The notes beneath the pieces were generated by a model that saw nothing but the letters and a program-made list of their open reading frames with translations, had not been told where the DNA came from and ran no database searches. Of a stretch of DNA of 27,655 nucleotides, positions 643 through 14,381 are shown one piece after another. The stretch is from the IMG/VR virus record IMGVR_UViG_3300037104_000677, positions 1 through 27,655 of that record. One strand, given 5' to 3'. Position numbers and translations under genes: made by a program. The DNA comes from a virus. Position 1 is the first letter of the stretch, and every line of letters starts with the position of its first letter.

Positions 643-1443
643 ATGACAATGAAAAATGAAAAGAAAGATAATCTTTTAGCGGAACATCTAAGAAAGATTA
701 AATATCGTGTTGGTTATAAAATCAACGAAACTCCTAAATATCGTCCACTGGTAAATGATAATGAGGAATTTGATGCTGTTCCAGATAGTATATATGCTAC
801 GAAGGACGGTCAACCAGTTCCTACAAGTCAGGGATTAACCAATGAAGCTGGTAATCAAGAAGATGCTCCTAAACCAGAAGGACAAGAACCTCCTGCGCCT
901 TCGAATGATCAACCACAAAATACTGATGCTCCACAGGCAGGTGCTCCAGTAGATGCTCCTGTACCAGCATTTGATAAAACTGGTGGAGATAGTCAATTGC
1001 CACCACCCCCAGAAGGTGATGCACCTATTAATCCAATGGGTGATGATATGAATGCTCCTGACCCGTCACAAGAAGTAAATAGAATGCAAAACGATATTAT
1101 TAAACATAATATTGAAGCCATGAAAAGCATTCATGACCAATTAGAAAGTCTTAATGCAACTGTTCAGGAATTAAATGCACAATCAAAAATTTTAAGTGCC
1201 AATGTTGAAGAAGTTCGTGAACCTACAAATACTGAGAAACTTATGAGCAAGAAAAACGTAAGTTATCCTTATTATTTTAATTTAAATGATTTCTGGAATG
1301 GCAATTGGTTTACTGAACAGAGAGAAAAAGAGCATGAAAAAGGCATTAATGAATTACCAGATGGTACATTTGTTGCTGATTTCGATGATTTACCACAAAA
1401 ATCTAAAATTGACGTACAAAATAGTTTTAATGAAATAAATTAA
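643..1443 (+). CDS. proline-rich protein with capsid-targeting-like N-terminus
   Basis: The protein has 266 residues. Residues 1-30 are a basic helix-prone segment ending YKINE-TPKY, giving an I-N-E site at 27-29. T4 prohead protease gp21 cuts after (L/I)-x-E, and three downstream genes have an equivalent site at residues 21-27. Residues about 60-145 are rich in Pro, Ala, Gly, Asp and Gln and are probably disordered. Residues about 145-190 (NRMQNDIIKHNIEAMKSIHD onward) look like a coiled coil. The C-terminus is acidic and aromatic. An ATG two codons downstream (649) is an alternative start. I infer a head-interior or scaffold-associated protein and recognise no named family. Confidence 0.6.
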   Translation: MTMKNEKKDNLLAEHLRKIKYRVGYKINETPKYRPLVNDNEEFDAVPDSIYATKDGQPVPTSQGLTNEAGNQEDAPKPEGQEPPAPSNDQPQNTDAPQAGAPVDAPVPAFDKTGGDSQLPPPPEGDAPINPMGDDMNAPDPSQEVNRMQNDIIKHNIEAMKSIHDQLESLNATVQELNAQSKILSANVEEVREPTNTEKLMSKKNVSYPYYFNLNDFWNGNWFTEQREKEHEKGINELPDGTFVADFDDLPQKSKIDVQNSFNEIN

Positions 1444-1444
1444 T

Positions 1445-2095
1445 ATGATTAAAAATGATAAAAGAAAACTATTTGAAGTTTTTGAAAAAGTGAACAAAAT
1501 CAACCTCAAAGAATGGTATGATGATGAATATTATAGTAAAGCACCAAAACAACCGCATGGTATGGGTGATTTTAATGCTATTGATTGGGTAGTACTACAC
1601 GAACAGTTGGTATTAAATACAAAAATGATTAAGGCAGGTAATAAAAGTACAGAAAAAGATTTGGCAGCTACTGTTAATGATTTAACTGATGATGATGGTA
1701 TGTTAAGTTTAGAAGAATTACAACAACTTGAAAATTTTGGTTTAGTTAATATTAACGGTATGTTTTCAGGTCTTAATAGTCAATTCCCAATAATTGAAAA
1801 TAAAAAATATTTTGATTTTAATACGTTCAAAACAAAAGCTGCTGAAATCTGGAATAAAGAAGCACCAGTTCAACAAAGAAGTAATGATTCTGAAGCACCA
1901 TATTTAAGAGGTAATGAACCAATGTCAGAAAGCGATATTAATGCTGTGGATTGGGATGATAAATATACAAATGAAAATTTAGTTAGTTTTTTAAAAAAAT
2001 GGTTTGGAGCATTAAGATATTATGCTGATGATCATAAAGCTGTGATTATAGCAAAAGCGTTGGAAGATGAATTTCCAATATTGAAAAATGGATAA
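1445..2095 (+). CDS. unknown protein with capsid-targeting-like N-terminus
   Basis: The gene encodes 216 residues, starts 1 base after the previous stop, and its own TAA overlaps the next ATG (TAATG), so the genes are translationally coupled. Residues 6-24 (KRKLFEVFEKVNKINLKEW) match the N-termini of the next two genes and end in L-K-E at 21-23, a possible prohead protease site. Two related short segments recur in the body: FNAIDWVVLHEQL near residue 40 and INAVDWDDKY near residue 165. The middle is rich in acidic residues (DLTDDDGMLSLEEL). No enzymatic motif is visible. A packaged internal protein is the best inference from the shared N-terminus. Confidence 0.6.
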   Translation: MIKNDKRKLFEVFEKVNKINLKEWYDDEYYSKAPKQPHGMGDFNAIDWVVLHEQLVLNTKMIKAGNKSTEKDLAATVNDLTDDDGMLSLEELQQLENFGLVNINGMFSGLNSQFPIIENKKYFDFNTFKTKAAEIWNKEAPVQQRSNDSEAPYLRGNEPMSESDINAVDWDDKYTNENLVSFLKKWFGALRYYADDHKAVIIAKALEDEFPILKNG

Positions 2096-2541
2096 TGAAA
2101 GTTTTTAATTCATACGGCACTCCAGAACGTCTCTTTGAAATGATGAAGAGAGTTAATAAACTCAATGAAGAAATTCTTCCAACAGAGAAAAAAAATGAGA
2201 TTATTAAAGAATTTATTGAGTTTCTTAAAGAAAAACTTGGTTTTGGTGATGATATGCCAAAAATCACAATATCATATGATGAAAAAGAAGCACCAAGCAT
2301 GAAGTCATTTGGTAAATACACACCAGAAACCAATGAATTAAGAGTAGTTGCTGTAAATAGAAACTTGGCAGACGTGTTAAGAACGTTGGCACATGAGCTA
2401 ATACATCATATGCAGCGTTTAAAAGGAGTATTAGGTCAGAACTCTAATGATACTGGCAGCGAGCACGAAAATGAAGCAAATGCTCTTGCAGGCGTATACA
2501 TGAGGGAATTCGGAGCTAAAAATCCAATAATTTTTGAATAA
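2095..2541 (+). CDS. HExxH zinc metalloprotease with capsid-targeting-like N-terminus
   Basis: The protein has 148 residues. H100-E-L-I-H104 is a classical zincin motif in a helix (LRTLAHELIHHMQ), followed by GSEHENEANALAG at 121-133, where E123 or E127 could be the third zinc ligand as in gluzincins. The domain from about residue 55 resembles small SprT/ImmA-like phage peptidases. Residues 10-27 (PERLFEMMKRVNKLNEEI) share the N-terminal pattern of the neighbours and end in L-N-E at 23-25. I therefore infer a protease made with a removable capsid-targeting leader and packaged in the head. The substrate is unknown. It could act on core proteins during maturation or on host targets after injection. 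The start is fixed by the TAATG overlap with the preceding gene. Confidence 0.7.
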   Translation: MKVFNSYGTPERLFEMMKRVNKLNEEILPTEKKNEIIKEFIEFLKEKLGFGDDMPKITISYDEKEAPSMKSFGKYTPETNELRVVAVNRNLADVLRTLAHELIHHMQRLKGVLGQNSNDTGSEHENEANALAGVYMREFGAKNPIIFE

Positions 2542-2552
2542 TAATTAAAAAC

Positions 2553-4712
2553 ATGAAAATATATAAACCAATAGGTAGTAAAGAGAGATTTGCTGAAATA
2601 TTTCAGGGAGTTAATAAAGTTAAATTAAATGAAGGTTTTGGACAGAATTATAATCCACAAGCTGTTCTTGAAATGGCATATGAAGGATTAAAAAACGGTA
2701 CGCTTAATATTGTGCATAGTAATTCACAAGGAGAGGGTGAACAAAGTTTTATTGAACTGGTTTGCAAAGACAAACAAGGTAATAATATAACTTTTACATT
2801 TAAAACCTTATCAAGTGCTGGCGATCAGGAAGGTGTTTATAATGTTGATAAAACTATAATGACAAATTTTTCATTTGATGATCAAACTGGTGAAGATAGT
2901 GTTGAAATGGATGAAAATGCATTAAAACAATTCAATGCACAACATGCTAATGATTTATTTGACGCAGTTAAAGAATATATTGACGTTGAAGAAACCGAAC
3001 CAGCAATAGATGAGATATATGAAGATGCAATCAGAAAAATTGATTCAAGTCCATTTGGTAAAAATAGTTTTGATAAATTGCAAACAGGTAAAGCATATGC
3101 TGACGAAAAACCAGTTAATCCTGCAATAAGGGTAAAATCTCCTGAGTTAGATAAATTTGTAAACGAAGACGATCTTAATAAGGAAGTATCTTTTGAAGGT
3201 AATAATACCACTACGAAAGTGCTTAATACAGTATCACAAGAATTAAAAGAAAAAATTATTTTAGATGCTGCAACAGTTGTGAACAGGGGATTGGAGAAAC
3301 AGGGTCTTAGCAGATATGATATGCCTAAAGAAGCATATAATAAATTAATTAAACATGTTGGTTTGGCAATATTTGAAGATTATTCTGCAAAGGTTAATGA
3401 GAATTTAAACGAAGAAGAAGCAAAAATAGCTGGTGATTATCCAGACCCAATGGGTAAGAAATTCAAACCAAAAGAACATTATCCAAAGAAAAAGAGAAAA
3501 CCACAAACCAGTGTTAAATTAAGTGAAACCGAAGAAGAAAATAATTATGAAGAAACATCTGATTCAAATACTCCAATAGATAAAAGAGCAAAAAAAACTG
3601 CACAATCTGATATACATAAAGAATTTAATCGTACAGTACCATATGATACAAAATTTAATGCTGGCATAGATGAAAAAGCTGAAGAACCATTAACTGGCGA
3701 TGATAATGTTACAGACACTGAATTTATGAATAAAGAGCGTCAGGGATTACAAGGTGGTGAAAAGGATGTGCCTTCAGATACAACTAATGATATTAACCCA
3801 GAAACAGAAATGGGTACTGAAAAAGATGTTAAAGCAGGTACTGGTGAAGATCAAATATCACATCAACCAATGGATAATGAACCAGCAGGTGATGAAATTG
3901 AAAAAATTGCACAGGATAAGGAAGAAGCTGGCGAAATGATAGCAGGTGGCAAAGGTGAAGGTAAATCACCGTTAGAATTCACATCAGATCAAATATTGAA
4001 AGGTATGAGAGTTGAAATGGAACATACTGATGACCCAATGGTTTCATTGGAAATTGCGCTTGATCATTTAACTGAAGACCCTGAATATTATGGTGATGAA
4101 GAAGAAAATCCACAACTTATGGCACAGGCAAATGCTGCTGCAGACGCAAATGAACCAGAAAACGCAGAAGACGATAAAGAAAAGACAGATATGTTACTTG
4201 GTTTTAAACCGCATAATGTTGGGGATGAAATTGAAACAGATGAAGATGTAGATACTGATGATAACATTAAATGGGGTAAAGAAATGTTAAGATTTCATAA
4301 AGATTATAACAACAATAAAACTCCTGAAAAACCAGAAGATGCATTAAGTGCGGAATCTGAAACTCCTGTAGAAGAAAAACCTAAAGAAGTTGCAGAAGAA
4401 GCAGGTTTTGAAGAATATACAGGCAATATTGGTGATAGATATGCTGATGAAGATGGCAATGAATTTGTTGTTCATGATAAAGTAAAAGGTGGTGTAACAT
4501 TAAAAACTCAAAGTGGTGAAATAGAAGTTGCAACAAGTGATTTAAAATTTTATAAAAAATTAAATGAAGGCGAAACTATAAAGAAAATAATTACTGAAGA
4601 ACAAATTAAAACAGCAAAAAGAACCTTAAGCAATAGTAAAGTTCCAACCGGTATGACAAAAAAAGAAGCTGTACAGATTTTAATGAATAATAATCTAAAG
4701 AAGATACTATAA
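2553..4712 (+). CDS. large acidic head-interior/scaffold-like protein with multiple LxE sites
   Basis: The protein has 719 residues and is strongly acidic. Residues 9-27 (SKERFAEIFQGVNKVKLNE) carry the shared N-terminal segment and end in L-N-E followed by G28, a textbook (L/I)-x-E site for a T4 gp21-type prohead protease. Further L-N-E sites occur at 285-287 and 670-672, the last again followed by G. Residues about 300-345 contain a basic patch (KKKRKP), and residues about 345-640 are a long low-complexity Glu/Asp/Lys region. Residues about 630-665 (GNIGDRYADEDGNEFVVHDK onward) look like a small beta domain. The composition fits a core or scaffold polyprotein, or an internal protein cut on maturation. 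Transcription ends in a strong hairpin just downstream. The precise role is inferred. Confidence 0.6.
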   Translation: MKIYKPIGSKERFAEIFQGVNKVKLNEGFGQNYNPQAVLEMAYEGLKNGTLNIVHSNSQGEGEQSFIELVCKDKQGNNITFTFKTLSSAGDQEGVYNVDKTIMTNFSFDDQTGEDSVEMDENALKQFNAQHANDLFDAVKEYIDVEETEPAIDEIYEDAIRKIDSSPFGKNSFDKLQTGKAYADEKPVNPAIRVKSPELDKFVNEDDLNKEVSFEGNNTTTKVLNTVSQELKEKIILDAATVVNRGLEKQGLSRYDMPKEAYNKLIKHVGLAIFEDYSAKVNENLNEEEAKIAGDYPDPMGKKFKPKEHYPKKKRKPQTSVKLSETEEENNYEETSDSNTPIDKRAKKTAQSDIHKEFNRTVPYDTKFNAGIDEKAEEPLTGDDNVTDTEFMNKERQGLQGGEKDVPSDTTNDINPETEMGTEKDVKAGTGEDQISHQPMDNEPAGDEIEKIAQDKEEAGEMIAGGKGEGKSPLEFTSDQILKGMRVEMEHTDDPMVSLEIALDHLTEDPEYYGDEEENPQLMAQANAAADANEPENAEDDKEKTDMLLGFKPHNVGDEIETDEDVDTDDNIKWGKEMLRFHKDYNNNKTPEKPEDALSAESETPVEEKPKEVAEEAGFEEYTGNIGDRYADEDGNEFVVHDKVKGGVTLKTQSGEIEVATSDLKFYKKLNEGETIKKIITEEQIKTAKRTLSNSKVPTGMTKKEAVQILMNNNLKKIL

Positions 4713-6485: not shown

Positions 6486-7715
6486 ATGGAAAACCAAAAT
6501 GAAACGACAAACCCACAAGGTGGTAATTTGTCAGATTTGAAAAAAATGTACGCTCACTATCAAAGTGAACAAAGACAAGCAAGACGTAAAACAAGTGAGG
6601 AAATCTTAGCGAAATATTTCGTTCCTCGTAAAAACAAAGAGATTTTTAGAATCCTCCCTCCAAAACCGAACAAGAAACACATTGAAGAAGCATTCTTTCA
6701 TGTTGTGATTACTAATGCTTCGGGTGGAAAGAAAAAACACGGAACTGTCATCTATTGTCCTGCACATAATGACGCAAAAGTTCCAAGGCTCGACAAAAAT
6801 GGTCAGCCATTATTAGACACTAATGGTCAAAAGATCATGACTCCACCTCCATGTCCTTTATGTGATAAAGCAAAAAAAATGCTTATACAGCAAAATCCCT
6901 CATTAAAAGGTAGAAAAAAAGAAACTTTGAATGCAAGTGAATTAATAATTTACGAAAAAAACAAAGCAATTTTTACTGAAGCTAATAAATGGGACGCTAA
7001 GAAATTCTACATTGTTCGTGGAATTGATAAAGGTACGGAAAAAGATGGTGTTAAATTCTGGAGATTTAAACACAATTTCAAAAGTCAAGGTACTCTTGAT
7101 AAATTACTTCCTATATTACAAGAGTATACAGACATGTATCAAGTTGATTTTGCAGACCCAAAATTTGGAACTGATTTAAGCATTACAACGAATGATAGTG
7201 AATTCAATGGACATGTTTACAAGCAGATATCTGCAATTAATTTCCGTGGTAAATCATTATTAAGTAATGATTCAGTTGTTATGCAATCATGGCTTGAGGA
7301 TAATACTACATGGAGAGATGTTTTTCTTCCAAAGAAAGCACCGAACATTACATCTTTTGAATTTCTTGAAATGGTTGTAAGTGGTACTAATCCTTATTGG
7401 GATGATACTGATTCAAACAACAAGCATTGGGTATTCCCGGGTCGTCCTGATTTGGAAGAAGCTGCAAATACTCGTACACGTAATAATGATGCTGATGAAG
7501 ATGCAGCATTTGAACAGGCATCTGATTTAATTGATGACGAATATCCACGTGTTACTGTTAGTAATATGACTGCTGACAAAGTTGGTACATATGAAGATAA
7601 TGCAGTGAATGTAGGAAATCAAGTGTTAAGTAATGCATCTGCAGCACCTGAAACAAATGTAACTGAACAAGGAGAAAATGTCCCTGATAAGAATTATGAC
7701 GACCTCCCCTTCTAA
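6486..7715 (+). CDS. ssb: gp32-like single-stranded DNA-binding protein
   Basis: The protein has 409 residues. It coats ssDNA during replication and recombination and recruits partners through its acidic tail. A zinc-site candidate is C91-P-A-H94 with C123-P-L-C126, comparable to the His/Cys zinc subdomain of T4 gp32; the spacing and ligand order differ from T4, so this is homology by pattern. The N-terminal segment is basic (about residues 15-50), as for cooperative gp32 proteins. After about residue 320 the chain is acidic and low-complexity and ends D-D-L-P-F, the typical SSB interaction tip. It is longer than T4 gp32 (301 residues). UvsX and RNase H follow, which is consistent with the role. 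Confidence 0.85.
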   Translation: MENQNETTNPQGGNLSDLKKMYAHYQSEQRQARRKTSEEILAKYFVPRKNKEIFRILPPKPNKKHIEEAFFHVVITNASGGKKKHGTVIYCPAHNDAKVPRLDKNGQPLLDTNGQKIMTPPPCPLCDKAKKMLIQQNPSLKGRKKETLNASELIIYEKNKAIFTEANKWDAKKFYIVRGIDKGTEKDGVKFWRFKHNFKSQGTLDKLLPILQEYTDMYQVDFADPKFGTDLSITTNDSEFNGHVYKQISAINFRGKSLLSNDSVVMQSWLEDNTTWRDVFLPKKAPNITSFEFLEMVVSGTNPYWDDTDSNNKHWVFPGRPDLEEAANTRTRNNDADEDAAFEQASDLIDDEYPRVTVSNMTADKVGTYEDNAVNVGNQVLSNASAAPETNVTEQGENVPDKNYDDLPF

Positions 7716-7783: not shown

Positions 7784-8920
7784 ATGGCAAAAACAACAGA
7801 AGAAGTACCTTCAAATGATAAGGTACGTAAACCAATACCCAAAAAGAATTTTTCATTAGAAAATTTCAAGAAAAAAGTAGGAGTTGATGATGTTCCAGAT
7901 AAACCATTGATTTGGATATCAATGTCTGAAGGCTTCAGAAAAGCATGTGGTCTACCCGGTTTTGCCAAAGGTTATGTTAATCAAGTACGTGGACATACAA
8001 ATACAGGTAAATCAACAGCAATCTGTGAAGTGCTTGTAGAAGCACAAAAAATGGGCATTTTGCCAATTCTTATTGATACTGAAAATAACATGGGAAGGGG
8101 TAGTTACAGATTAACTGAATTAGGTTTTGATTTTGATAATTATATCAGAATTGATAATGATTTTTTACTTCAGAAGTTTGGTAAAATACAAGATAAAGAC
8201 AGAAAAGAAGCTGCAATTGAAGACCTTGCAAAATGTTTTTATTATTTTCTTGATCAACAAGCAAACGGTGAATTACCATTTGATTTATTATTTGCAATTG
8301 ATTCAATAGGTACATTGAATTGTATTCAAACAATTAATGCACAAGTAAAAGATGATTCTCAAAATAACATGTGGAATGCTGGTGCATATGAAAAAGCATT
8401 TATGTATTTGTTAAACAACACAATACCAAGCAGCAGAAAGATTAATAAACCATACACCAATACAGTTGTTGCAACTCAAAAAATCTGGATTGATAATATG
8501 AACAAAGGAGTGGTTAAACACAAAGGTGGCGAAACATGGAATCTTGGTGCAAGACTTATATATCATTTTGGTGGTATTATAACACATGGAACAAAAGCTG
8601 CAACTGCTGATAGTAAAAAACGTACTGTTAGTTATGGTATTGAAACCAAAATTAGTGTTGCTAAGAATCACGTGGACGGTCCGCTTGGGGGAATATCAAT
8701 GCAAGGCATTATTATTTCAACACCACTTGGTTTTGTAAATCCTGATGATATTGATGCATTCAAAAAGAAACATATACTTTATTTTCGTAATTTATTTGAA
8801 GATGATAGTATTAATGCTGATGAACTCACATTATCAACAAAAAATATTGATGTTAATGGGAAAATTTCATTTGAAGATGAATTAATTGAAAGAAGTCCAG
8901 AATTACCAGAAGTTGTATAA
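7784..8920 (+). CDS. uvsX: UvsX-like RecA-family recombinase
   Basis: The protein has 378 residues, close to T4 UvsX (391). It forms ATP-dependent filaments on ssDNA and drives strand exchange for recombination-dependent replication and repair. The Walker A motif is G70-HTNTG-K76-S77, followed by PILIDTEN at 94-101, and Walker B is LLFAID at 168-173 followed by SIGTL. The C-terminal part includes a RecA-like core beta strand (NTVVATQKIW), a segment rich in Lys and Gly (KGGETWNLGARL) that probably contributes to DNA contacts, and an acidic tail. The stop TAA overlaps the ATG of the next gene. Confidence 0.88.
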   Translation: MAKTTEEVPSNDKVRKPIPKKNFSLENFKKKVGVDDVPDKPLIWISMSEGFRKACGLPGFAKGYVNQVRGHTNTGKSTAICEVLVEAQKMGILPILIDTENNMGRGSYRLTELGFDFDNYIRIDNDFLLQKFGKIQDKDRKEAAIEDLAKCFYYFLDQQANGELPFDLLFAIDSIGTLNCIQTINAQVKDDSQNNMWNAGAYEKAFMYLLNNTIPSSRKINKPYTNTVVATQKIWIDNMNKGVVKHKGGETWNLGARLIYHFGGIITHGTKAATADSKKRTVSYGIETKISVAKNHVDGPLGGISMQGIIISTPLGFVNPDDIDAFKKKHILYFRNLFEDDSINADELTLSTKNIDVNGKISFEDELIERSPELPEVV

Positions 8921-9963
8921 TGAAAACCCGTACTTTATTAGTTGATGCCTCATATTTGCTTCAACGTTCTTTTCATGGAGCAAAGGATGTTTACACACAA
9001 TCTTTTGGACATATTGGAGCACTTTACAGTTTTTTAACCACTGTTCGTAAAATGATTAAAGAACATATGATCAATAAGGTAATACTTGTATGGGATGGTG
9101 AAGGCGGTGGTGTTCAACGTTATCGTATTGACAATAAATATAAAGCTAATCGTAAAAATAAAGAATGGTATAAGAAAATTGAATTAAGTGATAGAGATAT
9201 TGAAAAAGAGAATAAAAAGAGAGACTCAATTCTTAAACAAAGACAGCATATAAAAGCATATGCAGAAGAATTGTTTTTAAGACAAATTGAAATACAGGAC
9301 GTTGAAGCAGATGATATAATTGCTGCTTATTGCTTGAAATATGATAACAAAGAAGAAATTTTTCTTTATTCGAGTGATAGAGATTTTGCACAATTATTGG
9401 ATTTAAATTTAAATATAATATTTCCAAACATTGAACAACCAGTAAATAAAACAAATTATATGATGAATTTTAATCATCATTATTCAAATGCATTAATATT
9501 AAAAATAATATGTGGCGATACTTCTGATAATATTGATGGTATTGAGGGTATGGGAGAAGATACGCTTTTGAAATATTTTCCAGAATTGAAATTTAAACAT
9601 TTAACTGTGAGGGAAATTTGCAAAAAAGCGGATGAACTTAATCAAGAAAGAGTTTTAAATAAAAAGAAACCTTTAAAGGCACTTGAAAATCTTTTAAACA
9701 ATATAGACAGACTAAAAATTAATTTTCAGTTAGTTAATTTGAGAGAACCAATGATCAATGATGAAGTGAGAACAGAACTGGATAATATCGATTCACCATT
9801 GTCACTTGAGGACAGAGGTAGCAAAAATCTCATAAAAATGATGAAAGATGATGAATTTTTAACGGTTTACGGTAGTACATTTGTTCAATATGTAGAACCG
9901 TTTTATACTGTAATCATGTGTGAAAGAGATTTATACCAAAGAAGTATCAGCAAGAAAAAATAG
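8920..9963 (+). CDS. rnh: RNase H / 5'-3' flap exonuclease (T4 Rnh-like, FEN family)
   Basis: The protein has 347 residues. It removes RNA primers and flaps from lagging-strand DNA. Acidic metal ligands of the FEN/PIN fold are visible in order: D9 (LLVDASY), a VWDGEGGG strand near residue 59, E129-A-D131-D132, D153-R-D155 (SSDRDFAQLL), and G199-D200-TSD203-NI leading into the helix-hairpin-helix region GIEGMG. Residues about 66-100 (RYRIDNKYKANRKNK onward) form the basic helical arch. The ATG at 8920 overlaps the uvsX stop (TAATG), so the two are coupled. It is slightly longer than T4 RNase H (305 residues) and ends in a basic tail. Confidence 0.88.
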   Translation: MKTRTLLVDASYLLQRSFHGAKDVYTQSFGHIGALYSFLTTVRKMIKEHMINKVILVWDGEGGGVQRYRIDNKYKANRKNKEWYKKIELSDRDIEKENKKRDSILKQRQHIKAYAEELFLRQIEIQDVEADDIIAAYCLKYDNKEEIFLYSSDRDFAQLLDLNLNIIFPNIEQPVNKTNYMMNFNHHYSNALILKIICGDTSDNIDGIEGMGEDTLLKYFPELKFKHLTVREICKKADELNQERVLNKKKPLKALENLLNNIDRLKINFQLVNLREPMINDEVRTELDNIDSPLSLEDRGSKNLIKMMKDDEFLTVYGSTFVQYVEPFYTVIMCERDLYQRSISKKK

Positions 9964-10787: not shown

Positions 10788-12914
10788 ATGAGCGAAAATA
10801 CTGAAAATACCCTAACTTCGTACTTAGGTCCTGAATTTCAACAACGTTTAATGTGGCAATTATTGGTTGAACCAGAATTTGCAGAAAAAACGATTCCTAA
10901 TTTAGCTGTTGAATATTTTGATGACCCAAATTTAAAAAGACTTTTTATAATAATATTGGAATTCTATAAAGAATTTAATAAAGTCCCAAATCTTCAGAAT
11001 CAAAGTATATTACAAGCAATTAACAAATATAAAAGTCCAAATAATATTATTGAGGAAGAATCATTATTTGCTGTAATAAAACGTATTGAATTATGGAATG
11101 AAAGAATTATTAACAAACAATTATTATATGATGGTGATGTTGTACAAAAGCAAACCACATCATTTATAAAACAACAGGAATATAGAAAAATTGGAGAATA
11201 TATACTTGGTAAAACAAAGAATGGTGAAATAAAAAGTAAATATGTTATTACTGATATTGAAGATAAATTTCAAAAAGTTGCACATATTGGAGATGAAGAA
11301 GACTATGGGACTGATGTGTTTGATAATATCGATCATGCATTGAGGAAAGAATTCAGACAAACAATACCCACAAGCATTTTTGCTATTGACACATTAACAG
11401 GTGGTGGACTTGGTAAAGGCGAAATTGGGGTTATTCTAACTCCTTCTGGTGTTGGAAAGACAACAATGCTTACCGTAATTGCAAACAGTGCATATGAAGA
11501 AGAAAAAAATGTTGCTCAGATAGTATTTGAGGATACTATCGAACAGATTCAACGTAAGCATTTTACTATATGGTCAAAAGTTCCGTTAAGCAAAATTGAT
11601 ATTCCTGAACAAAACGTCATAGTTAATAGAATTGCACACGAGAAAGCAATTAATATGAGGGGTAAAGGTAATCTTGTTATTAAGAAGTTTAGTCAGGAGA
11701 ATACCACAATGATGGATATTCGCAAATGGATGATAGGTTATGAGAAAAAATATGGCATTAAATTTGACATACTTGTGCTTGACTATTTGGACTGTCTTGA
11801 ATCTCATAAAAAATCTCCTGACAGAAATGAAGCCGAACTTGTAATCATAAAATCTTTTGAAGCATTGGCTGCAGACTTTAATATACCAGCATGGACTGCA
11901 ATTCAAACAAATAGAAGTGGTTTTAATGCTGAATATGTTGAAGCATATCAAACTGGTGGTAGTATTAAAAGAGTACAGAAAGCACATTTTTTTATGAGTG
12001 TTGCCAAAACGAAAGATCAACAGGAAGCAAGTTTAGCCAATATTAGAATTATTAAAGCAAGATTTGCAAAAGATGGTCAGGCATTTAATGACTGTGTGTT
12101 TAATAATGATACATTAGAAATCAAAATTGAAGACCCTAAATATCCTTTACAAACAAAAGGACTAAAACATCATGACAGTGAAGATATTAATAAACTTGAT
12201 GAAAGTATTGTTGAAATACAGAAAAAATCATCTGAATATGGACTGCATCTTGCAATTAGTCGTGAAATGAGTTTAACTGAAATGGTAAATGACCCAAGTG
12301 TTAATGACCATATACCTGACAAGGAAGCACCAATAGATATTGATCAATTTACTCCAAAGACTGATGATGCAGAAATTGTAAATATGCATATTGAAACAAC
12401 CAGAACTGATTTATCTGAAACTGAAATAAAACAAATATATAATATTGCAAAAGAGGCAATTACTGAAACAAAGAAGAGTGATGGACTTATTGAAATAGAT
12501 GAAACTGTAGAAATAAAGACTGTAAATGAGGGTGTAAATATAGGTTTACCATCACCAATAGGTAAAATATGTTATATTGAACCTAAGAAAAAAGATGATT
12601 TATTGGAATTAAGTGGCGATACTATAATCAGAAAAGTAATTGAAGTTGAGGTAAAATTAGAAGATTTACCATCAAAAGGAATGAATCTTGAAAAAAATAT
12701 TATACTGGAAGAAGTAAAACTTTCAACACCAAAAGTGATAATAAACTCAGAAAAAAAAGAAATAATTTCTTCGAAAGCAATTTTAAATAAAGAACAACTT
12801 GAAGAATTTGAAAAAGGACTAAAAAATCCAGATGCCTTACCAGTTGAGCAAATGGGATTGCATGAAAAATTAAATTTGATCATGAAGAAGCAAGATATTT
12901 TCAATAAAAAATAA
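10788..12914 (+). CDS. dnaB: DnaB/gp41-like replicative DNA helicase with long C-terminal extension
   Basis: The protein has 708 residues. It is the hexameric 5'-3' fork helicase. Residues 1-150 form the helical N-terminal domain. Walker A is P219-SGVG-K224-T225-T226, the following strand ends VFEDT, and Walker B is FDILVLDYLD at 326-335. AWTAIQTNRSG near residue 370 and GGSIKRVQKAHFFM near residue 390 correspond to the later DnaB motifs. The helicase core ends near residue 445. Residues about 445-708 are an extra, charged, mostly low-complexity region not present in T4 gp41 (475 residues). No separate loader or primase gene is visible in this window, so the extension might carry a partner-binding function. 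That is inference. Confidence 0.88.
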   Translation: MSENTENTLTSYLGPEFQQRLMWQLLVEPEFAEKTIPNLAVEYFDDPNLKRLFIIILEFYKEFNKVPNLQNQSILQAINKYKSPNNIIEEESLFAVIKRIELWNERIINKQLLYDGDVVQKQTTSFIKQQEYRKIGEYILGKTKNGEIKSKYVITDIEDKFQKVAHIGDEEDYGTDVFDNIDHALRKEFRQTIPTSIFAIDTLTGGGLGKGEIGVILTPSGVGKTTMLTVIANSAYEEEKNVAQIVFEDTIEQIQRKHFTIWSKVPLSKIDIPEQNVIVNRIAHEKAINMRGKGNLVIKKFSQENTTMMDIRKWMIGYEKKYGIKFDILVLDYLDCLESHKKSPDRNEAELVIIKSFEALAADFNIPAWTAIQTNRSGFNAEYVEAYQTGGSIKRVQKAHFFMSVAKTKDQQEASLANIRIIKARFAKDGQAFNDCVFNNDTLEIKIEDPKYPLQTKGLKHHDSEDINKLDESIVEIQKKSSEYGLHLAISREMSLTEMVNDPSVNDHIPDKEAPIDIDQFTPKTDDAEIVNMHIETTRTDLSETEIKQIYNIAKEAITETKKSDGLIEIDETVEIKTVNEGVNIGLPSPIGKICYIEPKKKDDLLELSGDTIIRKVIEVEVKLEDLPSKGMNLEKNIILEEVKLSTPKVIINSEKKEIISSKAILNKEQLEEFEKGLKNPDALPVEQMGLHEKLNLIMKKQDIFNKK

Positions 12915-13361: not shown

Positions 13362-13410
13362 GCCAGTTCCCTTACTCATAAGAACAAGGCGCATAGAACT
13401 GGCTTTTTTT
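13362..13410 (+). terminator. intrinsic terminator of the first RNA unit
   Basis: GCCAGTTC (13362-13369) pairs perfectly with GAACTGGC (13396-13403), followed by seven T (13404-13410). The loop can form an inner CTTA/TAAG hairpin. It separates RNAs a and b from the endonuclease gene. Confidence 0.85.
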
Positions 13411-13418
13411 GAAATTAA

Positions 13419-13430
13419 TGTTCTTTGAAA
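13419..13430 (+). promoter_or_regulatory. second boxA-like motif
   Basis: TGTTCTTTGAAA lies 9 bases after the terminator tail and upstream of the endonuclease insertion. If the endonuclease was inserted later, this motif may originally have led the tRNA-Met/RNA c unit now at 14225. Confidence 0.35.
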
Positions 13431-13456
13431 ACTATAGTTCGATTTAAAAGTCCGCA

Positions 13457-13465
13457 GTATTTATA
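13457..13465 (+). promoter_or_regulatory. GTATTTATA motif before the homing endonuclease
   Basis: An exact GTATTTATA copy ends 4 bases before the first possible ATG (13470) and 13 bases before the second (13479). If it is a promoter, the second ATG is the likelier start. Confidence 0.4.
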
Positions 13466-13469
13466 ATAA

Positions 13470-14234
13470 ATGTGTATTATGAATAATTGTTTAAATTGTG
13501 GAAAATTTGTAAACAATAAATTTTGTAATGTTTCTTGTCAAAATGAATTTCAAAACACTGGAAGAAATGATAAAAAATATGGAAAATTTGTTGATTATTT
13601 GGTTAAATGTAATTCATGTGATAAAATTTTTATTGTAAATGAACGTGAAAAATTATATCCACAAAAGAAAAAATATTATTGCTCACGAAGTTGTGCAAAT
13701 AAAAGAAAGCATTCACAGAAAACCAAAGATAAACTTTCTTTGAAAAATAAAAGAGTTAAATTTGTTAATTGTGAATATTGTGGAAATAGTTTTGAGCAGA
13801 AAAAAATAGATCAAAGATTTTGTGGACATTCATGTTCTACTAAATCTCGAATGCCACTAAAAGGATATGAAAGAATTGGTGGCTTGTGCTCTGTGAAATC
13901 ACAAAATAAAAGAGGTAAAAATGAAATATATTTTGCTAAACTATGTTGTGATAAATTTAAATCTGTTCTTTGCAATAAACAAATTTTTAATGGATGGGAT
14001 GCTGATGTTATTATTGAAGATTATAAAATTGCAATATTATGGAATGGTATTTGGCACTATAAAAAAATATCAAAAAATCATTCTTTAATACAAACAAAGA
14101 ATAGAGATATTTTAAAAATTAAAGAGATTATTAATTGTGGATACGAACCATATGTAATAAAAGATTTAGGAAGATTTGATAAAACCTTTGTTATGAAGGA
14201 ATTTGAAAATTTTAGAAAACACATAGCGGGGTAG
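13470..14234 (+). CDS. zinc-finger, Vsr/PD-(D/E)xK-like homing endonuclease
   Basis: The longest form has 254 residues. An ATG at 13479 (MNNCLNCG) is the likelier start given the promoter-like motif. Three Cys-rich zinc-binding units come first: CLNCG...CNVSC, CNSCDK...CSRSC and CEYCG...CGHSC. A nuclease domain follows from about residue 150: GKNEIYFAKL (candidate catalytic E), GWDADVIIEDYKIAILWNG (D and the D-x-K-like strand), then HY, a T-x-x-R-D-x-x-K helix and GYEPYVI. This is the pattern of Vsr-like (EDxHD-type) homing endonucleases. Its TAG stop (14232-14234) overlaps the tRNA-Met-like gene. It lies between a terminator and a tRNA in an otherwise untranslated locus, so it is most likely a free-standing homing insertion. 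Confidence 0.75.
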   Translation: MCIMNNCLNCGKFVNNKFCNVSCQNEFQNTGRNDKKYGKFVDYLVKCNSCDKIFIVNEREKLYPQKKKYYCSRSCANKRKHSQKTKDKLSLKNKRVKFVNCEYCGNSFEQKKIDQRFCGHSCSTKSRMPLKGYERIGGLCSVKSQNKRGKNEIYFAKLCCDKFKSVLCNKQIFNGWDADVIIEDYKIAILWNGIWHYKKISKNHSLIQTKNRDILKIKEIINCGYEPYVIKDLGRFDKTFVMKEFENFRKHIAG

Positions 14235-14297
14235 AGAAGCGGCATCTCACGAGCCTCATAAGCTCGGAATCACAGGTTCGAGTCCTGTCCAACGCTA
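14225..14297 (+). tRNA. tRNA-Met-like (CAT anticodon), imperfect acceptor stem
   Basis: The cloverleaf is AGCGGGG (14225-14231), TA, D arm GAGA/TCTC with loop AGCGGCA, anticodon arm CGAGC/GCTCG around CTCATAA (anticodon CAT), variable GAATC, T arm ACAGG/CCTGT around TTCGAGT, then 3' strand CAACGCT and A73 at 14297, with one extra C at 14289. A1-T72 to G4-C69 pair, but two adjacent G·A mismatches follow. The anticodon stem lacks the GGG/CCC of initiators. It may be elongator Met or Ile with a modified C34. CCA is not encoded. The endonuclease stop codon uses bases 14232-14234, so the 5' end may have been altered by the insertion. Confidence 0.75.
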
Positions 14298-14303
14298 CAA
14301 AAT

Positions 14304-14381
14304 GAAGAACTGGTGGTTTTTACAGTAAAATAAATTTAAGCCAAATGTAAAGTTACCAAACAAAAACCAACGAAATTCTTC
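14304..14381 (+). ncRNA. Y RNA-like stem-loop carrying the shared motif (RNA c)
   Basis: GAAGAA (14304-14309) pairs with TTCTTC (14376-14381), and GGTTTTT (14315-14321) with AAAAACC (14362-14368). Directly inside are ACAG on the 5' side and GTTACCAAA (14352-14360) on the 3' side, with ACA/TGT (14346-14348) pairing beyond an asymmetric loop. This is the same arrangement as in RNA e, which shares TTACCAAA. The remaining loop is short (about 21 bases) with no tRNA-like arms, so it would be a minimal Y RNA. It starts only 7 bases after the tRNA-Met-like gene and could be released by tRNA processing. Confidence 0.55.

Follow-up and report, generated by a model that had tools for sequence, protein, structure and literature searches.

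What is the role of an N-terminal leader that is shared by neighbouring genes whose products are otherwise unrelated? This question is raised by a gene cluster in a viral record of 27,655 bases (the window), in which four consecutive ORFs, here named B to E (Table 1), had been described as encoding proteins with a common leader that ends in (I/L)-x-E. These sites were placed at residues 29, 23, 25 and 27 of the ORFs beginning at 643, 1445, 2095 and 2553, and all four are present. The common leader was upheld for C, D and E, which follow the pattern R-[LF]-[FA]-E-x-[MF]-x-x-V-N-K...L-[NK]-E. It was not upheld for B, which has an unrelated N-terminus with a conserved site of its own. Judged from sequence and by analogy, the leader of C, D and E is very likely a capsid-targeting propeptide of a T4-like phage, which would be cut by an S77 protease and would free its cargo inside the head.

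Table 1. Features of the leader-bearing cluster and of one leader-bearing gene elsewhere. Positions refer to the window unless another contig is named; all cut sites are predictions.
Feature	Position	Strand	Remarks
B, 266 aa	643..1443	+	Pro/acid-rich, coiled coil; predicted cut after INE29 (codon 727-729)
C, 216 aa, function unassigned	1445..2095	+	Relatives in L001-L024; leader score 31.6
C leader, MIKNDKRKLFEVFEKVNKINLKE	1445..1513	+	Predicted cut after residue 23 (LKE23)
D, 148 aa, zincin-type metalloprotease	2095..2541	+	HELIHH and ENEAN motifs
D leader, MKVFNSYGTPERLFEMMKRVNKLNE	2095..2169	+	Predicted cut after residue 25 (LNE25)
E, 719 aa, multidomain	2553..4712	+	DUF5661 domain at 483-514
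E leader, MKIYKPIGSKERFAEIFQGVNKVKLNE	2553..2633	+	Predicted cut after residue 27 (LNE27)
E, candidate internal site VNE205	3159..3167	+	[LIV]xE in 22/25, x = N, K, D, S, Q; linker 203-223
E, candidate internal site LNE287	3405..3413	+	14/23 exact, 18 with alignment slack; linker 285-301
E, candidate internal site LSE325	3519..3527	+	19/26, x = S, T, N, A, G, K, D; linker 317-444
E, candidate internal site LNE672	4560..4568	+	8/8 relatives aligning here, x = N, K, G, S, T; linker 670-678
Kinase-like protein (AAA_33)	G002 189804-190652 (L089)		Leader core without LxE, near capsid genes

By themselves, the (I/L)-x-E sites are modest evidence. An [LI]xE whose Glu falls on one of residues 20-30 has a chance rate of 15% (655 ORFs of related genomes), and four such sites in a row would occur by chance at about 5e-4, before selection is considered. 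The observation is accepted because the leader is common to C, D and E, the sites alone being weak. A position-specific score, applied to the window together with three relatives (178-299 kb), gave 12 N-terminal matches of at least 20 bits versus 0 expected, the latter being an estimate from internal positions. All matches at or above 20 bits were N-terminal, and the next-highest score anywhere in these sequences was 13. Searching the remaining genome for the leader pattern had been proposed as a check; in the window and the three large relatives, the leader marks C, D and E and one further, kinase-like gene only. Synonymous codons differ along the leader, so its conservation lies at the level of the protein, where its helix is amphipathic.

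The score matrix was trained on leaders of these same families, and the independent test is a pattern scan of viral contigs. In this blind scan, a DNA pattern for RLFEMMxx[VIM][ND] was searched in 2.9 million viral contigs with its position unconstrained. The scan returned 55 stretches, most of which are phage ORFs with the motif 7-15 residues from the start codon. In most stretches (L/I/V)xE follows soon after the motif, and about ten are chance matches elsewhere. The leader had been claimed to be usable as a search tag, and the scan did retrieve the N-termini of unrelated phage proteins. With all loci pooled, [LIV]xE lies at most 12 residues past the leader core in 83 of 93 non-redundant leader proteins, which are mutually related and do not represent 93 independent events; at five control offsets it is found in 1-17 of about 90 (about 1-19%). 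Chance resemblance of the leaders was rejected on the separation of scores and on these control offsets. A consensus leader of 28 residues, probably too short as a query, gave no tblastn match in 50,697 records of annotated phages at E values up to 10.

Stripped of their leaders, the bodies sort into some 15 or more unrelated groups, a count made at BLAST sensitivity in which singletons may hide distant kinship. D and E make up one large group; C, the kinase-like proteins and one pair form a group each, and fourteen bodies stand alone, of which at least two are doubtful ORFs. Represented among the bodies are a zincin, a kinase-like protein of the AAA_33 family and a GP88 protein. D and E would be joined in one group by a natural fusion in L024, where both lie in a single ORF. 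The E-type leader is kept at the junction of this fusion and ends in LDE; it is the one strong internal copy of the leader.

The leader and the cut site do not always go together. The [LIV]xE test is failed by 10 of the 93 leader proteins, including four kinase-like proteins and the products of L145 4355-4837 and L154 3254-3850; the remaining failures are two doubtful ORFs and two proteins whose FNE or VNE narrowly misses the test. Of the kinase-like proteins, the G002 copy was assigned to AAA_33, and the other three were grouped with it by BLAST. Their genes share the strand of gp23, at a distance of about 4.5-7 kb from it. In T4, the residues for targeting and for processing are described as separable in passages of PMC9026906, which fits the leader proteins without LxE found here. 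In the same source, an Asp at position 10 of IPIII stops processing and keeps targeting. By analogy, cargo that is tagged and remains uncut is therefore possible.

Is a suitable protease encoded by these phages? The presence of a gp21-type enzyme had been set as a second check, and S77 was found to be encoded in leader-bearing relatives, adjoining gp23. The S77 protease is present in G001 and in 13 of 19 further leader-bearing contigs. The capsid gene gp23 is present in the same 13 and also in G001 and G002, so that S77 is found in 14 of the 15 leader-bearing contigs with gp23. The one without it, G002, ends in or just past the ORF upstream of gp23. In the relatives, S77, a scaffold ORF and gp23 follow one another in T4 order. 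The capsid proteins of leader-bearing relatives carry M(I/L)NE/S (the stroke marks the presumed cut), which by eye we take to lie near the place of the T4 gp23 cut. In the proteases, (L/I/V)(N/T/S)E stands close to the protein's own N-terminus, and many also have LKE close to the C-terminus. From these sites (LNE, INE, LKE), the expected substrates of the protease show the same residues as the leaders. As a separate observation, the prohead proteases of G001 (295639-297588, L079), G015 (L171) and G024 (L172) are interrupted by several hundred in-frame residues, for which the intein-type matches (E 1.5e-5 to 1.8e-6) fall short of the curated cut-off.

The window fragment holds neither the protease nor the capsid genes within its 27.7 kb, and in large relatives the C/D/E cluster lies tens of kilobases away from the capsid genes. 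A search of the window for S77 gave no match, as expected for a fragment, and its control gave no match either, so that this negative carries no weight by itself. Replication genes of T4 type lie 3' of the cluster: a UvsX-like gene (7784-8920), an exonuclease gene (8920-9963) and a gp41-type helicase gene (10788-12914, by tblastn). On the other side, an ORF leaving the left end (1-402) matches phrog_20046, a family of unknown function, and a conserved 64-residue ORF (442-636) lies directly downstream of it. Four long repetitive ORFs with repeated segments in common occupy 18068-25646 and are possibly fibre-like. Upstream of the cluster in G001 (239782-250114) and G002 (140954-159254), there are dense runs of ORFs that by eye are glycosyltransferase- or methyltransferase-like.

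What do the tagged bodies look like? The reading of D as a metalloprotease was supported by its match to the phrog_87 metallo-protease family (3.6e-6), by the invariant residues H100, E101, H104 and E125 with HE..H and ENEAN kept, and by a model with a zincin-type fold. Both HExxH with a third ligand and the zincin fold are found. Residues 10-19 are helical in the model (mean pLDDT 83), the pLDDT is under 50 at 21-25, and the enzyme domain starts at residue 30, so that the predicted cut site would fall in a disordered hinge outside the folded body. The model matches IrrE/SprT-like viral structures, and PDB matches are weak. The N-termini of distant D relatives are short and unrelated, and most close with (L/I)xE at residue 8-10 (MISFKDFIKE, MRFNELTE, MKFTELKE, MNFKELKE, MKVKEIITE; L043 is an exception). 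An N-terminus ending in (L/I)xE thus appears to recur around the D-type enzyme with other sequences. Some distant relatives are fused to other enzyme domains. In bacterial genomes, D has three distant matches only, all in metagenome bins, and no host was inferred from them.

Protein E has a DUF5661 domain (4.4e-7). Its leader site is [LIV]xE in 26 of 26 relatives, and R12, V20 and E27 of the leader are three of the six invariant columns across the whole family. The complete bodies range from about 450 to 1029 residues and diverge widely while the leader stays. The model of E is poor (mean pLDDT 59, pTM 0.25). Its low-confidence stretches 19-31, 285-301 and 670-678 hold LNE27, LNE287 and LNE672, although such linkers make up 45% of E and the coincidence is weak by itself. 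The preliminary description had pointed to LNE287 and LNE672 as further sites, which are indeed there, and had suggested that E is cut in pieces. This suggestion is strengthened by conservation: at 205, 287, 325 and 672, all in low-confidence linkers, the hydrophobic-x-E is kept while x is free, unlike the linker occurrences at 374, 608 and 615. LTE508 is conserved, yet it lies inside the folded DUF5661 region and was not counted. From the alignments and the model, further cutting of E at conserved interdomain sites is probable. Protein E, whose body had been described as scaffold-like, was rejected as the gp22 scaffold, since another ORF fills the gp22 position between the protease and gp23 in relatives. 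In L016 (11939-12771), and also in L006, the E gene is split by a homing-endonuclease-like ORF, and the downstream half has no leader.

Protein C has 216 residues only in the window and in its near-identical relative L005, and most other copies have about 160-190. Protein B gives only weak coiled-coil matches in Pfam, and (I/V)(N/S/G)E(S/T) is kept at its predicted site in twelve distinct relatives. In most relatives B begins at the second Met (M3), which makes residue 27 a likelier position for the predicted site than residue 29. Lacking the shared leader, B is a neighbouring candidate substrate only.

The closest known system is that of the T4 internal proteins, which carry an N-terminal targeting sequence that is cut by gp21 after L/I-x-E and whose propeptides are 10-19 residues long, as given in passages of PMC9026906. 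Like the targeting sequences of IPI, IPII and IPIII, the leader is N-terminal, ends in (L/I)-x-E and stands on unrelated bodies, and leader-bearing relatives encode a gp21-type (S77) protease and gp23. Unlike the T4 propeptides, it has 23-27 or more residues with a conserved amphipathic helix and a VN(K/P) segment, and it is found on many more kinds of body. In the proposed mechanism, the amphipathic leader helix (R-L/F-F/A-E-x-M/F-x-x-V-N-K) would bind the prohead core through one of its components (probably the scaffold), and the bound leader would carry the attached body into the prohead. The gp21-type protease would then cut after (L/I)-x-E and release the body inside the head, from which it could leave with the DNA at infection. 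The cargo would include D, with its intact-looking catalytic residues, and the large multidomain E. Core binding, cleavage, packaging, ejection and action of the cargo in the host are thus proposed by analogy, with targeting, cutting and exit modelled on T4 as far as passages of PMC9026906 describe them. A search of the open-licence literature found no proteomics for these uncultured phages.

Could the leader proteins instead be components of the prohead core? According to this chief rival, which is unlikely, they are scaffold-like substrates that are cut by the protease and mostly lost before DNA packaging, and not ejected cargo. Such a fate is known for T4 gp22, gp67 and gp68, core proteins that are cut up and mostly lost from the head before the DNA is packaged. 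It is most plausible for E, a long, largely disordered protein that evolves fast and in which several internal (L/I/V)xE sites are conserved, but the gp22 position in relatives belongs to a separate ORF. It is least plausible for D, whose zincin body is compact and conserved and leaves the leader site outside the fold; by family, the kinase-like cargo is an enzyme too. A further step down in probability is a leader that remains uncleaved and docks, outside the head, to a partner from the phage or the host, with LxE as part of the docking motif. The variable spacing between helix and LxE and the variable middle residue speak against this, as do the match of LxE to the sites of the capsid protein and the protease and the retention of (L/I)xE without the leader helix in distant D relatives; the amphipathic nature of the helix and the leader proteins without LxE would agree with it. 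Finally, chance resemblance, or a recent duplication that gave the adjacent C, D and E one N-terminus with no role as a tag, is easy to imagine for a gene start but highly improbable, given that synonymous codons vary, that E bodies diverge widely with the leader retained, and that the same leader stands on many unrelated bodies in other phages.

Capsid targeting followed by cleavage, as preferred here, also has counterparts outside T4. In the giant phages SPN3US and phiKZ, a diverged gp21-type protease cuts after Glu, and packaged proteins whose propeptides are cleaved are ejected, according to passages of PMC9026906 and PMC10052503. The leader proteins resemble these ejection proteins in belonging to large-genome phages with a gp21-type protease. 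They differ in that the leader-bearing phages have a T4-type S77, scaffold and gp23 in T4 order, and the passages of the two sources on SPN3US and phiKZ describe no single common leader helix of the C/D/E kind. Zincin-type peptidases are also encoded by jumbo phages (PMC7824862), and polyvalent proteins, which phages inject, are multidomain phage proteins in biological conflicts (PMC5512222). The fusions of distant D relatives to other enzyme domains and the D-E fusion in L024 recall the polyvalent proteins; unlike them, the domains here are separate genes, each with its own tag. Among cultured phages, the best full-length match to the capsid protein is that of Flavobacterium phage immuto (33% identity). 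The C/D/E leader is absent from the region of immuto that was read, where several genes begin with other short N-termini ending in (L/I/V)xE. In G001, the ORFs at 7077-7697 and 13389-14336 (L065) have other short N-termini with IKE (MKSVNRIIKEE, MLSIIQIIKEE), which resemble MKKSQLRQIIKEA of immuto. These are possibly a second leader type.

A broader reading is plausible and is put forward tentatively. The leader may be a portable tag for head loading that, within a large uncultured T4-like lineage, has spread to many unrelated proteins, with separable parts for targeting (the helix) and release (LxE). Some cargo would then be freed, some (the kinase-like proteins) would stay tagged, and E would be a polyprotein that is released piecemeal. 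Proteins delivered to the host along with the phage DNA act ahead of all phage gene expression, and in uncultured phages they are otherwise indistinguishable from other unknown genes. A tag that can be recognised in sequence provides a list of candidate cargo for phages that cannot be grown, including a metalloprotease and a kinase-like protein. The leader would be a further example of T4-like phages recruiting new head cargo. If the tag is indeed portable, the proteins that these phages bring into their hosts could be listed from sequence alone.
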